Origin: Chitinophagaceae bacterium
GTDB taxonomy: Bacteria; Bacteroidota; Bacteroidia; Chitinophagales; Chitinophagaceae
DNA length: 64,000 nt
NCBI GenBank assembly: GCA_022843585.1
Contig: JALHNJ010000007.1
Span: 124,001-188,000 of the forward strand
Direction: 5' to 3'
Made by a program: the position numbers and the translations under genes. A model generated the notes under the pieces. That model was given only the letters and a program-made list of their open reading frames with translations. It had not been told where the DNA came from and did no database searches. Below, in pieces: positions 56,470-63,399 of this stretch; position 1 is the first letter of the stretch, and every line of letters starts with the position of its first letter.

Positions 56470-56844
56470 TTAGTGAGTCGCATGCAGGTAAGCTATTACT
56501 AATAATGCCAGATGGCATAAAACCAGCAGCACTTTACTAAGCATCCATAATTTTGAATGATGCTTTTTTAATTTCTTCACTCTCTCCTTATGAAAGCGAT
56601 GGATATGTGCTGTCTCATCCATAGTGGGTGTATGTGATTTTCCTGCGGCACCATGCGGTTTTTTATCTTGGTGAATGGGTGCTGCTTTCATGGGAGTTTC
56701 TGTGCTGCTTTTAGCTGGCTTATCAGTAGCATTATTATCACTTATGGCTGCGGCTTTCACAGCATTTTCTTTTGCCATCATACTTACAGGTCTTGCTAAA
56801 AAGAAGGCCAGGAATGTTGCAGTTAAGATGAAATATCGTGTCAT
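56470..56844 (-). CDS. Small membrane protein, His/Lys-rich, unknown function
   Basis: From the ATG at 56844 the product has 124 residues: a signal-like start (MTRYFILTATFLAFFLARPVSM), a polar Ala/Lys/Thr-rich middle with HQDKKPHGAAGKSH, a basic helix (HRFHKERVKKLKKHHSKLW) and a C-terminal membrane helix (MLSKVLLVLCHLALLVIAYL). The many histidines (about ten) hint at metal binding, which is speculative. The frame is open to 56952 but has no earlier good start. No family recognised. Confidence 0.6.
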   Translation of the reverse strand: MTRYFILTATFLAFFLARPVSMMAKENAVKAAAISDNNATDKPAKSSTETPMKAAPIHQDKKPHGAAGKSHTPTMDETAHIHRFHKERVKKLKKHHSKLWMLSKVLLVLCHLALLVIAYLHATH

Positions 56845-56953
56845 AACTAATTGTTTTATGACCCAAATTTTCATCCATCGATGCCCCGAAAACAAGGTAG
56901 TAAATGCGTAAAAATCAAGTGCCGTATTTAAACTGGTAAAACGCCTTAACAAC

Positions 56954-57017
56954 TGCGTATGAATGCCTTATTAGCGACAATGCGTACAACTACGTATTCT
57001 GCAGGAGTATCTACGTA
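56954..57017 (+). promoter_or_regulatory. Candidate operator: phased TGCGTA/TACGTA hexamers
   Basis: Four related hexamers lie in the gap before the lipoprotein operon: TGCGTA 56954-56959 and 56981-56986, TACGTA 56991-56996 and 57012-57017. Distances between the last three are 10 and 21 bases, one and two helical turns. The operon's LuxR-type regulator (59904-60554) is the natural candidate binder. This is inference from spacing. Confidence 0.4.
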
Positions 57018-57129
57018 ATCTGGCCGGCGGGCTTTGAAAGTTCATAATAGGAGATTACTTTAGGGATAGAATTAATCCCGCCTGGTTGAGACTCCCTGCC
57101 GCTATTTTTAACCACCAAAAATTAAAATC

Positions 57130-57804
57130 ATGAGAAAGAACAAGATCATCGGCTTAATGCGTAAGCAAATTCCATTACTATTTCTGATAACCGTTTCAAA
57201 TTTATTATTTATCGGATGTAATAATGGAGGAAGTGAAAACAAAAGCGAATTGGCTGATACAACAAAAGTCTTAGTAGGCGATTCAGCAGAAGTAGCAGGT
57301 GAGCAAACTGATTTAAATAGTTTGCTAATGACTGCTGATGATCAGGTAAGAATCTTCAATCAAAGCAATGACGTTAAACAAATCTATTTTCAATTCAAAT
57401 TTGTGAGAGGGAAAGGGATGACATTGATAGCGACTGGGGTTGATAAAAAAGGAAATGTAATTGCCGGATCAAACCCCATTGAACTTCAAATAATACCTAA
57501 AACCAGGATTAATCTTCCCCAAAATGGCTTGTTTACAACCCAGATAGTAACCAGAGGGAACGTTAAAGAATTGTATGGATTACCCAGTTTAGGTAAAGAT
57601 GAGGTAATAGATGATACCGTCTTCAGGAATATACGCTTTACTCCACTTCCGGTATTAGGCGGAGGCAATGCAGTTTTTTATGCTATTACAATCGATCCTC
57701 AAACTGCAACAGAACCTTATAAAATGAATATGACAGGACAAATTCTTACTAATCCAAGTCCACCTGCCAAGCCATGTGAAGAATCATGCGATGCAGATAA
57801 TTAA
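57130..57804 (+). CDS. Lipoprotein, first gene of a signalling module
   Basis: The 224 residues have a lipoprotein signal (MRKNKIIGLMRKQIPLLFLITVSNLLFIGC in two parts, Cys about 30), an acidic linker, and a domain with several beta strands (QVRIFNQSNDVKQIYFQF, GMTLIATGVDKKGN, INLPQNGLFTTQIVTRGN, AVFYAITIDPQT). The C-terminus reads LTNPSPPAKPCEES. The same tail (NPCPPAKPAES) ends the next protein. No known family. It is the first gene of five same-strand genes ending with a kinase and a regulator; the upstream 177-base gap holds the phased hexamers. Confidence 0.75.
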   Translation: MRKNKIIGLMRKQIPLLFLITVSNLLFIGCNNGGSENKSELADTTKVLVGDSAEVAGEQTDLNSLLMTADDQVRIFNQSNDVKQIYFQFKFVRGKGMTLIATGVDKKGNVIAGSNPIELQIIPKTRINLPQNGLFTTQIVTRGNVKELYGLPSLGKDEVIDDTVFRNIRFTPLPVLGGGNAVFYAITIDPQTATEPYKMNMTGQILTNPSPPAKPCEESCDADN

Positions 57805-57871
57805 AAGAATAGAAATCAGTCAGGGATGTTATTTATTTTACATCCCTAACTGATTAATTAAAAAAAATTAT

Positions 57872-58420
57872 ATGACAAATCAAATCACCCTCCTCTCTCA
57901 GAAATTCAGTTTCGACAAACTGACAAGTCAGTTCCCCTCATCGGGCAGTCCCTTTAAGAAAATATTTTTTCAAAATGAGCTGCGATCTTTAGAAGGCGGC
58001 TCTGCTACCTTTGCTGTTATCGCCTATCCTGCCTGGAAAGGGACTATCGGCAAATGGGTCGTAGGCACCAAGATAAATGGAGATGATTTGGGCGGAGGTA
58101 GTCCTATTCCATTTGAAGCTCCACTTGCTTTTGCAAATAATGAATTACTATTTGCTGCCAAGTCTGATAAGAAAGTAAAAAAGAAAAGTAAAAAAAAGAA
58201 AGGCTGCAAAAAAGATAATCCCGGTGCTGACTTTCGAAAATTAGTAAGAGAGGTTTTCCGTGACCCCGATCTGGCCAAGAAAAGTTTTTTCACTTTTACA
58301 CCCACTATTTCTGAAAATCCACATATTGGATTTGATGTAACATTAGATGCAGGTGGTACTATTGCCAATGCAATGGCCAACCCTTGCCCTCCTGCCAAAC
58401 CAGCTGAATCTGAAGCATAG
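57872..58420 (+). CDS. Unknown protein sharing the PPAKP tail of the upstream lipoprotein
   Basis: The 182-residue product starts MTNQITLLSQKFSFDKLTSQ with no signal peptide. It has a Gly-rich strand region (RSLEGGSATFAVIAYPAWKG, GKWVVGTKINGDDLGGGS), a strongly basic run around residues 96-107 (KKVKKKSKKKKGCKKD), a helix (ADFRKLVREVFRD) and a last beta region (FFTFTPTISENPHIGFDVTL). It ends MANPCPPAKPAESEA, matching the tail of the preceding lipoprotein. 67 bases separate the two genes. No family recognised; whether it is exported is unclear. Confidence 0.72.
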   Translation: MTNQITLLSQKFSFDKLTSQFPSSGSPFKKIFFQNELRSLEGGSATFAVIAYPAWKGTIGKWVVGTKINGDDLGGGSPIPFEAPLAFANNELLFAAKSDKKVKKKSKKKKGCKKDNPGADFRKLVREVFRDPDLAKKSFFTFTPTISENPHIGFDVTLDAGGTIANAMANPCPPAKPAESEA

Positions 58421-58430
58421 AAATAATTCT

Positions 58431-59117
58431 ATGAACCACACCTTACAGCAAATTCTTGATTGCTCCGAAATCTGGGCTTTATTTATACCCCTTATACTTA
58501 TAGTAAGCGGTAAAGAAAATACAGCTTACCTAAAACCCGTTCGTATCTATGTTTGGGTAGCATTAATAATAAGCGTCTTAATTGTATTGATTGCAAAAAG
58601 GAACCAATGGTTTGGACTACCAAAGGAAACATCTCCGGAATGGATCGGAAGTAATAACTTTCTTTATAATCTTCTTTCTACAGTAAGGTTCTTACTTTTT
58701 AGTTGGTTTTTTATTTTATTGAATCAAAAAACGTTATCTACATTTAAAAAAGTAATTCCCCTGGTATTTATCTTTTGTTTCGTTATTAATTTTATTTTTT
58801 TTGAAGACTTCTTTAGCTACTGGAGTTTTAGTGGTCGATTGTTATCAATAGAAGCGACAATACTATTATTTTATTGCCTGCTTTATTATATGCACATGTT
58901 GAATGACGATGAAAGCTCTTTCAGAAAATCACCTTCATTCTGGATTGTTACCGGATTAAGCATATATGTTGTAGTAAACGTTCCGATTTTTCTTTTTTAC
59001 ATAGCATTGTACAAGCAATTTGAAGAATTTACTGTTGGCATCTGGGATATACACAACATATCCTATATAATTTTTTGTATTTTCTTAGCTAAATCATTTT
59101 ATGAATCCAGGAAGTGA
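58431..59117 (+). CDS. Polytopic membrane protein, probable sensor partner of the kinase
   Basis: From the ATG at 58431 (MNHTLQQILDCSEIWALFIP) the product has 228 residues and about seven membrane helices with short loops; a longer frame from 58347 overlaps the previous gene and is rejected. Helices include IWALFIPLILIVS, IYVWVALIISVLIVLIA, VIPLVFIFCFVINFIFF and YVVVNVPIFLFYIALY. It overlaps the start of the kinase gene by 17 bases, so the two are translationally coupled. The kinase has only one helix and no sensor, so this protein is likely its sensor subunit (inference). Confidence 0.78.
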   Translation: MNHTLQQILDCSEIWALFIPLILIVSGKENTAYLKPVRIYVWVALIISVLIVLIAKRNQWFGLPKETSPEWIGSNNFLYNLLSTVRFLLFSWFFILLNQKTLSTFKKVIPLVFIFCFVINFIFFEDFFSYWSFSGRLLSIEATILLFYCLLYYMHMLNDDESSFRKSPSFWIVTGLSIYVVVNVPIFLFYIALYKQFEEFTVGIWDIHNISYIIFCIFLAKSFYESRK

Positions 59118-59907
59118 TATACGATTTATAGTTATAATAGCAATTGCACTAATGCTTTTGCTTTTTGCCAGCTTCCTGGTGGCATTGATCTTTAACCAAC
59201 GGAAAAAATTAAAGTATCAACGTTCCATGGAAAAACTCCGGGAGCAACAACAAAACCAACTCATCGAAGCCGCTGTACGCAGTGAAGAAACAGAAAGACA
59301 CCGCATTGCCGAAACGCTACATGATGAAGTAGGTGCTATCCTGTCTTCTGCCAAATTACATTTATTGGGAATTAAAACAGTTACTCTGGACGACCGGGAT
59401 AAAGGATTACATGATAAGGGCAGCGAATTACTAAATGATGTAATTCAAAAAGTAAGAGGTATTTCACATAACCTTCACTCTAATATTTTAAAAGAGTTTG
59501 GATTGAACGAAGCTATCCGGCATTTTATTAAAAAAATTACACAGGGCACTATCATTAATGCTACCACGGCGCTGGATGATAATTATCAAACGATAAATGC
59601 CGATAATGATATCAGCATATACCGGATGGTACAGGAATTAATAAACAATATCCTGAAATATGCCGATGCCACAGAGGTAATTATTAGTTCCACTTATAAA
59701 AACAATGAATTGGATCTTGTTATTTTTCATAATGGAGAGGGGCTTACCCAGGAACAGTTTGAAAAACTTCGCTATGATAAAGAAGGATTAGGACTAAAAA
59801 ATATACAGAACCGTGTTATCTTGCTGAAGGGAAAGATATATTTCACTCATGGTGCTGAAGGTTACCGGATCAATATTCATGTACCAGTAAAACCCACCGA
59901 AGAATGA
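59101..59907 (+). CDS. NarL-type sensor histidine kinase (HisKA_3)
   Basis: The 268 residues have one membrane helix (FIVIIAIALMLLLFASFLVALIF, about 9-31), a short coiled linker, a HisKA_3 dimerisation domain with ERHRIAETLHDEVGAILSSAK (His about residue 75), and an ATPase domain with MVQELINNILKYA (N box), HNGEG, and GLGLKNIQNRV. It lacks an extracytoplasmic sensor, so the signal probably enters through the coupled membrane protein. Its stop overlaps the regulator start by 4 bases (ATGA). Confidence 0.93.
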   Translation: MNPGSDIRFIVIIAIALMLLLFASFLVALIFNQRKKLKYQRSMEKLREQQQNQLIEAAVRSEETERHRIAETLHDEVGAILSSAKLHLLGIKTVTLDDRDKGLHDKGSELLNDVIQKVRGISHNLHSNILKEFGLNEAIRHFIKKITQGTIINATTALDDNYQTINADNDISIYRMVQELINNILKYADATEVIISSTYKNNELDLVIFHNGEGLTQEQFEKLRYDKEGLGLKNIQNRVILLKGKIYFTHGAEGYRINIHVPVKPTEE

Positions 59908-60554
59908 GCATTATTAAAATAGCCATAGCGGATGATTATAAGATCTTTCGGGACGGACTGAAAGTTGGTCTTTCTGCTGATGAGAATCTTACGGTGATGC
60001 TGGAAGCCGACAATGGAGAAGACTTACTAAAGGCATTGGAAACAAATACTCCTGATGTTATATTAATGGATTTGAAAATGCCTATCATGGATGGCATGGA
60101 AGCAACGAAAGCGGTTAGAAAAAAATATCCTGCTATAAAAGTATTAGTAGTTACAATGTATGAGGATGATAAATTTATTATTCACATGATGGAGAACGGA
60201 GCCAATGGTTATTTATTAAAAAATGCAGAGCCGGACGAAATAATAAAATCTATTTATGCGGTGCATGAAAACGGATATTATTTTAACGACCTGGTGAATA
60301 AAGCACTGCTGAAAAAACTGGTACTAAAGAACAACCTGAAACCTTCCTTTAATCAAAATGTGGAATTAACCGAAAGAGAACTGGAAGTACTTAAATTGAT
60401 TTGTGAAGAAAAAACGGCCGCTGAAATTGGCAAAGAAATTTTCTTAAGCCCCCGCTCGGTTGAAGGCATCCGCCAACGTTTGATAGAAAAAGTAGGTGTT
60501 CGTAATTCAGCAGGATTGGTAATGTTTGCCGTAAAAGGTGGCCTGGTAGATTGA
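59904..60554 (+). CDS. LuxR/NarL-family response regulator
   Basis: Partner of the preceding kinase, overlapping it by 4 bases. The 216 residues have a receiver domain with IKIAIADDYKIFRDGLK, phospho-acceptor Asp in VILMDLKMPIMDGM (about residue 55), VVTMYEDDK and GYLLKNAEP, and a C-terminal HTH (ELTERELEVLKLICEEKTAAEIGKE, about 150-175, then SPRSVEGIRQRLIEKV). It probably controls this operon through the TGCGTA/TACGTA hexamers at 56954-57017 (inference). Converges on the epimerase-like gene with a 2-base gap. Confidence 0.95.
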   Translation: MSIIKIAIADDYKIFRDGLKVGLSADENLTVMLEADNGEDLLKALETNTPDVILMDLKMPIMDGMEATKAVRKKYPAIKVLVVTMYEDDKFIIHMMENGANGYLLKNAEPDEIIKSIYAVHENGYYFNDLVNKALLKKLVLKNNLKPSFNQNVELTERELEVLKLICEEKTAAEIGKEIFLSPRSVEGIRQRLIEKVGVRNSAGLVMFAVKGGLVD

Positions 60555-62419: not shown

Positions 62420-62502
62420 TTTATTTTTAGAACAGGTTTGGGTTGATTGTTAAAGTATTTTATACAAGAAGTGGCGTATATTCAAGTATTGTAGCAATAC
62501 TA

Positions 62503-63399
62503 ATGCGACCCTTTCTAACCATATTAAGTTTTTTTGCGACGACTTTTGGGTTCGGTCAATCACTTTCACACAAATACTTGCATTTCCGAACCGACTATTA
62601 TTGGGACACAACACTTTTTAAATCCGAACAGGATTATTATTACGACCTATCCAATGGAAAAATCACCCGGAAAGAATATCCAGTGATAAAATATATGTTC
62701 ACTGAAATTGTAAGTGACACGCCACTAGTCACAAAAGACACATTTGAAAGACGTGGTTGGTCTGAATATCCATATAAATACATTAGGAAAGGAAACAGCA
62801 TTTATCTCCAATATTTCGATTTAAGAAAAAGAAAGCTGCAATTAAACAAAGAGTATTCTTTTGACCGAAGAGACACTGTAAAGTGGTTAGCAAACAAAAA
62901 TTCCCTCGATAGTAAAGATGGAATTTCGGTAGGTGGCTTTTCTACATATTTAGGTGAAGAAATTATTCAAATCGATGGAAAGCAGTATAAGACTTTCCAT
63001 TTTTTTGAAGATCATGACGAATTAAGTTCCCACCCGAGTTATTATACCAAAGATATTTTTTTAGAACAAACAACACTAATACCTATCAAATACATTACGA
63101 CACATTACAATTATAAAACACATCAAAAACTTTTGTATAGTTCAACAACTATTTTGGCTTCATCAAGTGACACATTGCCTGACTATACGAACAAGAAAAT
63201 TGAAGACCTAGTTACTTATGAGAACAAAAGTACTATCTGGACAGAAAGGCAAAAGCAAGAGTTTTTTAAAATGTTTCCGGGCAACATGACACAATATATT
63301 GACTGCCTTATAAGTAAGTTGGACAGACATATCAGCTTCTTTCACTTTGAACAAAACATGTACTTCAAAAGACTTGTAGTCAGCAAAGAATGCGAGTGA
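62503..63399 (+). CDS. Secreted protein, unknown function
   Basis: From the ATG at 62503 the product has 298 residues with a signal peptide (MRPFLTILSFFATTFGFGQS). The mature part is rich in Tyr, Lys and Asp (HFRTDYYWDTTLFKSEQDYY, KYIRKGNSIYLQYFDLRKRK, YLGEEIIQIDGKQYKTFHFF) and mostly beta. A GTG-like earlier start at 62443 would put residues before the signal and is rejected. No family recognised. Codon use and lower GC look slightly different from neighbours, so recent acquisition is possible but not shown. A short hairpin follows. Confidence 0.7.
   Translation: MRPFLTILSFFATTFGFGQSLSHKYLHFRTDYYWDTTLFKSEQDYYYDLSNGKITRKEYPVIKYMFTEIVSDTPLVTKDTFERRGWSEYPYKYIRKGNSIYLQYFDLRKRKLQLNKEYSFDRRDTVKWLANKNSLDSKDGISVGGFSTYLGEEIIQIDGKQYKTFHFFEDHDELSSHPSYYTKDIFLEQTTLIPIKYITTHYNYKTHQKLLYSSTTILASSSDTLPDYTNKKIEDLVTYENKSTIWTERQKQEFFKMFPGNMTQYIDCLISKLDRHISFFHFEQNMYFKRLVVSKECE

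Follow-up and report, generated by a model that had tools for sequence, protein, structure and literature searches.

A recurrent Bacteroidota gene module of tail-bearing proteins, a putative seven-helix receptor and a two-component pair

In Agr-type quorum sensing, a signal gene is accompanied by a polytopic receptor, a kinase, a regulator and a box before the signal gene. LiaFSR combines a membrane protein, a NarL-type kinase and a LuxR-type regulator in one operon, and 7TMR-DISM proteins are a class of seven-transmembrane (7TM) receptors. PEP-CTERM/exosortase systems act on many dispersed substrates that carry a short C-terminal motif with a membrane helix and basic residues after it. Gut, soil and water communities all have Bacteroidota among their major members. 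In this study, we analysed a stretch of 64,000 nucleotides from a Chitinophagaceae bacterium (GenBank assembly GCA_022843585.1, contig JALHNJ010000007.1, positions 124,001 to 188,000; the window) and found a module of five open reading frames (ORFs) on the + strand at 57130-60554. They encode two proteins with a shared C-terminal tail (A and B, labelled P0001 and P0002), a 7TM protein (P0003), a histidine kinase and a response regulator. An earlier note had described these ORFs, their strand, their overlaps and both tails, and all of them were present. The overlaps are 17 bases (7TM/kinase) and 4 bases (kinase/regulator), whereas A and B are separated by 67 bases, and B and the 7TM gene by 10.

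The last two genes belong to a described class. HisKA_3 and HATPase_c in the kinase, and Response_reg and GerE in the regulator, were all above the Pfam cut-offs, and the pair is therefore of the NarL/LuxR two-component type. The kinase has one membrane helix and no sensor domain; its lack of a sensor had been noted before. In contrast to NarL/LuxR systems, sensing appears to be split off to the 7TM and tail proteins, which have no Pfam family. Known 7TM receptor kinases include the LytS type, of which BtsS is an example (PMC10653868). As in these and the 7TMR-DISM receptors, seven membrane helices lie upstream of the kinase, but in the module they are encoded by a separate gene, and no 7TMR-DISM or LytS-type match occurred among the Pfam matches at E 0.01 of 71 7TM members. 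The module has the three-part operon of LiaFSR, and its kinase matches the LiaS model far below the cut-off. However, P0001-P0003 gave no LiaF match in Pfam or NCBIfam at E 1, and the tail proteins have no LiaFSR counterpart. The module also follows the logic of the Agr type, whereas its receptor is unfused to the kinase, its partner is a protein of ~90-260 residues in the window subfamily, and no processing gene was seen in its operon, the flanks of which were not run against a library. With PEP-CTERM/exosortase it shares the combination of a polytopic membrane protein with a short motif at the C-terminus, but most of its tails leave no room for a membrane helix, and the genes neighbour a receptor gene instead of being dispersed. 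A literature search with specific terms, with subscription papers and preprints mostly outside its scope, found no published description of the module or a like system in Bacteroidota.

We investigated how widely the tail recurs. A protein search with A or B over 195 family genomes returned the own genome as the sole match, and relatives were therefore reached via a DNA pattern of the tail and a 7TM profile. The degenerate DNA pattern gave 43 matches in 37/394 family genomes (reversed-pattern control, 14 in 12). Paired matches within 1 kb were present only in the own genome, G289, G195 and G251; the pair in G251, which is known here from pattern matches alone, has identical letters 122 bases apart. 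The complete five-gene module was found in G289 (same genus, locus L096) and G195 (other genus, locus L115), with the A/B tails NPCPPAKP/NPCPPAKP and NPSPPAKP/NPSPPAKP, respectively. Two other pattern matches were inspected: the motif of L035 is internal to a 1961-residue repeat protein, and L036 has no such tail among its listed ORFs.

The 7TM profile at 1e-5 matched 68/394 family genomes, and a scan of named genomes gave 67 7TM loci, in Chitinophagaceae, Mucilaginibacter, Pedobacter, Segetibacter, Niastella, Terrimonas, Spirosoma and others. A strict regular expression, [NDEKWYTS]P[SCATV]PP within the last 25 residues of a gene ending at most 1300 nucleotides upstream of the 7TM gene, was composed after the tails of set 2 had been seen. 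In set 2 it was found at 58/66 loci with a 7TM ORF, compared to 4/400 of the other ORFs of at least 80 residues at the same loci. When the nearest same-strand upstream ORF was taken, 54/57 had the motif, and 3/399 controls did; this ORF-by-ORF comparison excludes loci without such an ORF (9/66, 1/23, 4/40 and 2/40 in the four sets). Among the eight misses in set 2, the contig start truncates L145 and L157, the chosen 7TM ORF of L105 begins too early, L134 and L155 have variant tails, L154 is Pro-rich, and L127 and L150 have nothing. The upstream protein ends in WTWF, DWWA or DWWS at L179, L180 and L186, and three consecutive tail-protein genes lie at L085 4294-6079, with the ends DPSPPATA, DPSPPATA and DPSPPARA.

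A broader 7TM profile matched 40/198 Bacteroidota genomes at 1e-5 and 71/247 class genomes at 1e-8. Distant 7TM relatives had PCPxxC-like tails upstream. A broad regular expression was composed after set 3 (23 weaker matches of the family-wide 7TM profile search) and set 4 (40 regions picked from 77 broader-profile matches in Bacteroidota). Counted post hoc, a PCP- or PP-type upstream tail was found at 15/23 loci of set 3 (controls 2/93), and the same expression matched 30/40 of set 4 (controls 2/131). It was frozen before the sequences of a fresh set were read. This set comprised 40 of 46 newly matched genomes with one best match each; G769, G681, G765, G732, G779 and G720, which were near contig ends, weak or broken, were left out. 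The unchanged expression matched 30/40 fresh loci and 5/85 control ORFs, one of them probably a true tail gene. As this per-locus figure and the Fisher tests set loci against single ORFs, an ORF-versus-ORF comparison was added, and the motif was present in 31/38 nearest upstream ORFs and 4/83 others (p 7e-18). The fresh regions contained a kinase ORF in 39/40 cases and a regulator in 37/40.

The earlier note had asked whether the tail recurs in homologues and whether the first two genes stay with the kinase pair in related genomes. Homologues do keep the tail, and in the three relatives in which A and B each have a clear orthologue (L095, L096 and L115), both genes remain beside the pair. The module is far wider than the pair described there, and the note missed both this breadth and a sixth gene. 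A module of two unnamed families and a two-component pair is well supported. In more distant loci, tail genes also accompany another kinase type or a cyclase.

At the syntenic place of the window, L105, L134 and L153 have the order tail-7TM-tail, in which the first tail of L134 is the variant TPPCP. L105 and L134 then continue with 7TM, kinase and regulator genes, and L153 is cut by the contig end. Each 7TM gene there has its own upstream gene, and either the window lost the first 7TM gene or the others gained one.

Pfam gives no fitting family for A or B, and A, B and the 7TM protein had nothing above cut-off in Pfam or NCBIfam. In an alignment of six A/B proteins, the only invariant columns were the first Met and N-P-x-P-P-A-K-P. 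With the tails removed, all-against-all BLAST (single linkage, L154_6 left out) joined 70/87 window-type tail proteins, although these joins may partly reflect signal peptides. A tail-less profile made without the window groups found neither P0001 (E 1.3) nor P0002 (E 0.09) in round 1 and was then widened. In round 2 it matched P0001 (5.6e-10) and its relative L115_16 (8e-21), and on the B side L115_17 (1e-14), L095_20 (4e-5) and, just, P0002 (0.0044). In that round 7/1365 decoys were below 1e-3. Judging by their numbers and listings, five of them (L223_12, L262_3, L153_12, L134_0 and L154_6) are probably genes that lie upstream at 7TM loci; the remaining two were L161_25 and L223_2. Because a tail-less profile built without them matches both, A and B are, on this profile evidence, diverged paralogues within one strongly diverged family. 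The duplication that the earlier note had offered as an option is thereby favoured, and its view of A and B as otherwise different is contradicted.

The genes of the module diverge at different rates. Among the window, L096 and L095, identity was highest for the regulator (96-98%) and the kinase (96-97%), followed by B (86-88%) and the 7TM protein (78-88%), and lowest for A (17-41%). All three A proteins keep NP[SC]PPAKP despite this low identity. Such a gradient, with a conserved output, a looser receptor and A fastest, fits a ligand or recognition role of A; replacement of A by transfer is another explanation for its divergence. Across 56 tails, the NPSPP codons vary freely at third positions, indicating that selection acts on the protein. 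A cis-acting RNA or DNA element was ruled out by these free positions and by tail genes that are divergent from the 7TM gene (L139, L141, L142, L147, L148 and L151). In the window subfamily, the tail Cys is unlikely to bind metal or form disulfides, as Cys and Ser interchange among orthologues.

The AlphaFold2 model of P0003 has seven long helices (mean pLDDT 92.6). It had no Foldseek match in the PDB at E 0.001 or better. The top matches were mostly G-protein-coupled receptors (GPCRs) and insignificant, with a best E of 0.3 and a TM-score (query) of at most 0.58 among the matches listed. No Pfam family was common to the 71 7TM members scanned. Lys plus Arg per loop (6.95 vs 4.17) favours an N-out/C-in orientation, and the average conservation of outer and inner half-helices was 0.525 and 0.468, respectively (permutation p 0.023). 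The kinase core varies between loci and is either HisKA_3 or a longer type, which Pfam identified as HisKA in the one case tested. Strict labelling by regular expression assigned 36/60 kinases to HisKA_3; of the 24 unlabelled, ~16 were HisKA-type and 8 HisKA_3-like by eye. Both core types are preceded by a similar N-terminal helix and QRKK linker, and the tail gene and 7TM gene stay paired while the core is exchanged. At L174 and L177, two kinase genes follow the 7TM gene.

The region upstream of A was also compared. The window, L095 and L096 have a common block with TGCGTA/TACGYA half sites, which was seen too in L115, L105, L109 and L110. The inverted repeat TGCGTA-N4-TACGYA has one copy in the whole own genome, at 56981-56996, before gene A and between it and a divergent small membrane gene. 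G289, G418 and G195 each have a single copy, located ahead of gene A of their module, and G318 has two (each also read on the other strand), one ahead of each tail-7TM unit. The exact repeat was not found in G155, a genome without a 7TM match. The reversed control pattern occurred 0-2 times per genome, so the number of repeats is chance-like but their place is not. In set 2, the repeat was present in 11/42 NarL-type loci (L147 is probably misplaced among them), where block shuffles gave 0.003 on average, and in 0/10 other loci; this contrast points weakly to a rule tying the repeat to NarL-type loci. A possible promoter follows, of which the first element is invariant and the second partly so in the window, L095 and L096. 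TTTGAAAG and TACTTTAG resemble the TTG and TAnnTTTG promoter elements of Bacteroidota. These results suggest that the repeat is the box of the module's own regulator. They agree with the idea, raised in the earlier note, that the output of the system controls A and B, as the exact repeat stands before A and nowhere else in the genome.

We propose, with moderate confidence, that the module is a self-contained, self-regulating sensor in which the tail is the part read by the 7TM protein. A, as a lipoprotein, and the signal-less B would display the same tail, as part of the whole protein, to the neighbouring 7TM protein. The 7TM protein would relay the state of this contact to the kinase via its single membrane helix, and the kinase would phosphorylate the LuxR-type regulator. 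The regulator would then bind the TGCGTA-N4-TACGYA box and activate or repress A and B; perhaps it would act on the divergent small membrane gene as well. This step would close a feedback loop.

Several observations weigh against this proposal. The contact between the tail and the 7TM protein is itself something that we infer. The contrast between outer and inner half-helices is even in transmembrane helices TM5 and TM6 and reversed in TM7. In the fresh set, the frozen expression was not matched at 10/40 loci: L269 is truncated at the contig end, the own tail genes of L264 and L288 were missed by the choice of ORF, L278, L282 and L298 have near-miss tails, and L279, L291, L293 and L296 have no clear tail. 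The match at L289 is dubious, and the loci are not fully independent, many being from related species. One tail gene accompanies two or three 7TM genes at L224, L229, L244, L245 and L259, so the pairing is not one-to-one throughout. A second 7TM-kinase-regulator set, in the own genome, has no upstream tail gene. The exact repeat was not found in 31/42 NarL-type loci of set 2, nor in G366, despite its related module. Finally, a simple hydropathy rule assigned a signal peptide or lipobox to 46/125 nearest tail proteins and neither to 79/125, a type to which B belongs, while the conserved face of the 7TM protein is predicted to be periplasmic. Signal-less members would either exit the cell by some other route or carry a tail that can act from the cytoplasm. 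The second set of the own genome lies at G000:C1:951699-952319 (L222 3140-3784), and L225 and L240 are similar.

The tail could instead be cleaved from a pheromone precursor and serve as a peptide signal between cells, the body being a leader or carrier and the 7TM protein a peptide receptor, with a logic similar to that of peptide quorum sensing in Gram-positive bacteria. Such a role would suit the fast divergence of A around a kept tail, the repeat before the tail genes and the GPCRs that make up most of the top fold matches of the 7TM protein, none of them significant. It would also suit the place of the motif close to the very end, at a median of 10 residues from the C-terminus (quartiles 8 and 14). 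However, no further gene, and hence no protease or exporter, recurs between the tail gene and the regulator in the neighbourhoods read, the flanks of which were not run against a library. The AlphaFold2 model of P0002 is a mixed alpha/beta domain (mean pLDDT 82.9) with a mostly coil tail; like the P0003 model, it had no Foldseek match in the PDB at E 0.001 or better, and no convincing match came from profile searches of PDB sequences either. The bodies are conserved, apparently folded domains, and 79/125 tail proteins are signal-less. These points make a pheromone precursor rather unlikely.

The signal-less majority would be explained if the tail docked in the cytoplasm on the kinase or another partner, with the 7TM protein sensing a lipid, the membrane state or a small molecule. 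B and the Pedobacter type, which have no signal peptide, are consistent with this. However, a signal peptide or lipobox is present in the other 46 tail proteins, A has a lipobox, the kinase core is swapped while tail and 7TM protein persist, and the tail-7TM pair recurs without a second kinase. We consider cytoplasmic docking quite unlikely. There is little chance, too, that the tail is a structural end of the fold kept for stability. The homology of A and B would allow it, but no other part of this strongly diverged family is as well conserved as the tail, which is mostly coil in the P0002 model, and related motifs occur on larger upstream proteins of different build at set 4 loci.

We then asked whether the tail is a dedicated partner or a general tag. 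A profile of window-type tail proteins had one to three matches in 26/29 genomes; it missed 3/29 genomes with a known tail gene, and its 0-3 matches per genome are lower bounds. A profile of the PCP-type proteins gave 33 matches in 23 of 149 class genomes. Of these, 19/33 adjoin 7TM profile matches (paired by hand), and three more (L308, L309 and L313) lie at a 7TM or 7TM-like gene with kinase and regulator genes, of which only L308 matches the 7TM profile (6e-5). Seven lie in three loci with a cyclase gene (L311 369-3770, L312 3106-6510 and L316 642-3963), and the remaining four comprise a contig end (L310), a fragment with an internal stop (G721:C8) and two lone matches (L314 and L315). Altogether, 29/33 are at a 7TM, 7TM-like or cyclase gene, and the idea of PCP-type proteins as dispersed multi-copy genes was not borne out. 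A sorting or processing tag read by the 7TM protein as an exosortase-like enzyme, which the closeness of a short conserved motif at the C-terminus to a polytopic membrane protein might suggest, has very little chance of being correct, as profile matches per genome are few even as lower bounds, the motif is too near the end for a membrane helix or anchor behind it, and the 7TM members have no common enzyme family match. The interpretation in the earlier note is thus supported for a sensor that probably controls the first two genes, the duplication and the sensorless kinase, but not for the general sorting or processing tag.

In L311, L312 and L316, two PCP-type tail proteins are divergent from a gene for TPR domains and a class III adenylate/guanylate cyclase. 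TPR domains often bind peptide ends, and these loci are therefore suggestive. As a tentative extension of the proposed sensor, there may be a phylum-wide class of signalling by genetically encoded proteins or peptides that has gone unrecognised in Bacteroidota. In it, a dedicated protein would present a short Pro/Cys tail at its C-terminus as ligand to a GPCR-like 7TM protein, or in some lineages to a TPR ectodomain, and thereby drive a two-component system or a class III cyclase whose output feeds back on the ligand gene. If this is true, hypothetical proteins ending in PCPxxC or NPxPP would gain a function. With two unnamed families that are usually together, a likely regulator box and a clear motif at the C-terminus, the module lends itself to a sharp bench test. 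The features of the window are listed in Table 1.

Table 1. Positions of the module genes and associated elements in the window
Feature	Position	Strand	Remarks
Divergent small membrane protein, His/Lys-rich	56470..56844	-	124 residues from inner ATG; listed ORF extends to 56952
Half site TGCGTA of putative regulator box	56954..56959	+	Invariant in three orthologous upstream regions
Putative regulator box, inverted repeat TGCGTA-CAAC-TACGTA	56981..56996	+	Sole exact match in own genome
Third half site TACGTA (GAGTATCTACGTAATC)	57012..57017	+	TACGYA in window, L095, L096, L115, L105, L109, L110
Possible promoter	57033..57063	+	TTTGAAAG (57033), TACTTTAG (57056)
Tail protein A, lipoprotein by sequence	57130..57804	+	224 residues, lipobox LLFIGC, fast-evolving
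Tail of A, NPSPPAKP	57751..57774	+	Protein end reads NPSPPAKPCEES
Tail protein B, paralogue of A by profile match	57872..58420	+	182 residues, no evident signal peptide
Tail of B, NPCPPAKP	58379..58402	+	Protein end reads NPCPPAKPAESE
Seven-helix (7TM) protein, putative receptor	58431..59117	+	228 residues; mechanical ORF begins 58347
Histidine kinase	59101..59907	+	268 residues, one N-terminal membrane helix + HisKA_3 + HATPase_c (Pfam)
NarL/LuxR-type response regulator	59904..60554	+	216 residues, Response_reg + GerE (Pfam)

Elsewhere in the window, Pfam at E 1 gave no match for a 318-residue ORF at 62443-63399. The divergent small membrane protein has one C-terminal hydrophobic segment, ends in YLHATH and had only a sub-threshold Pfam match. 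Its homologues were found at 21/196 scanned loci, representing 17 distinct modules, and adjoined the first tail gene each time; several of these loci have otherwise different flanks. These results suggest that it is possibly a sixth component of the module.

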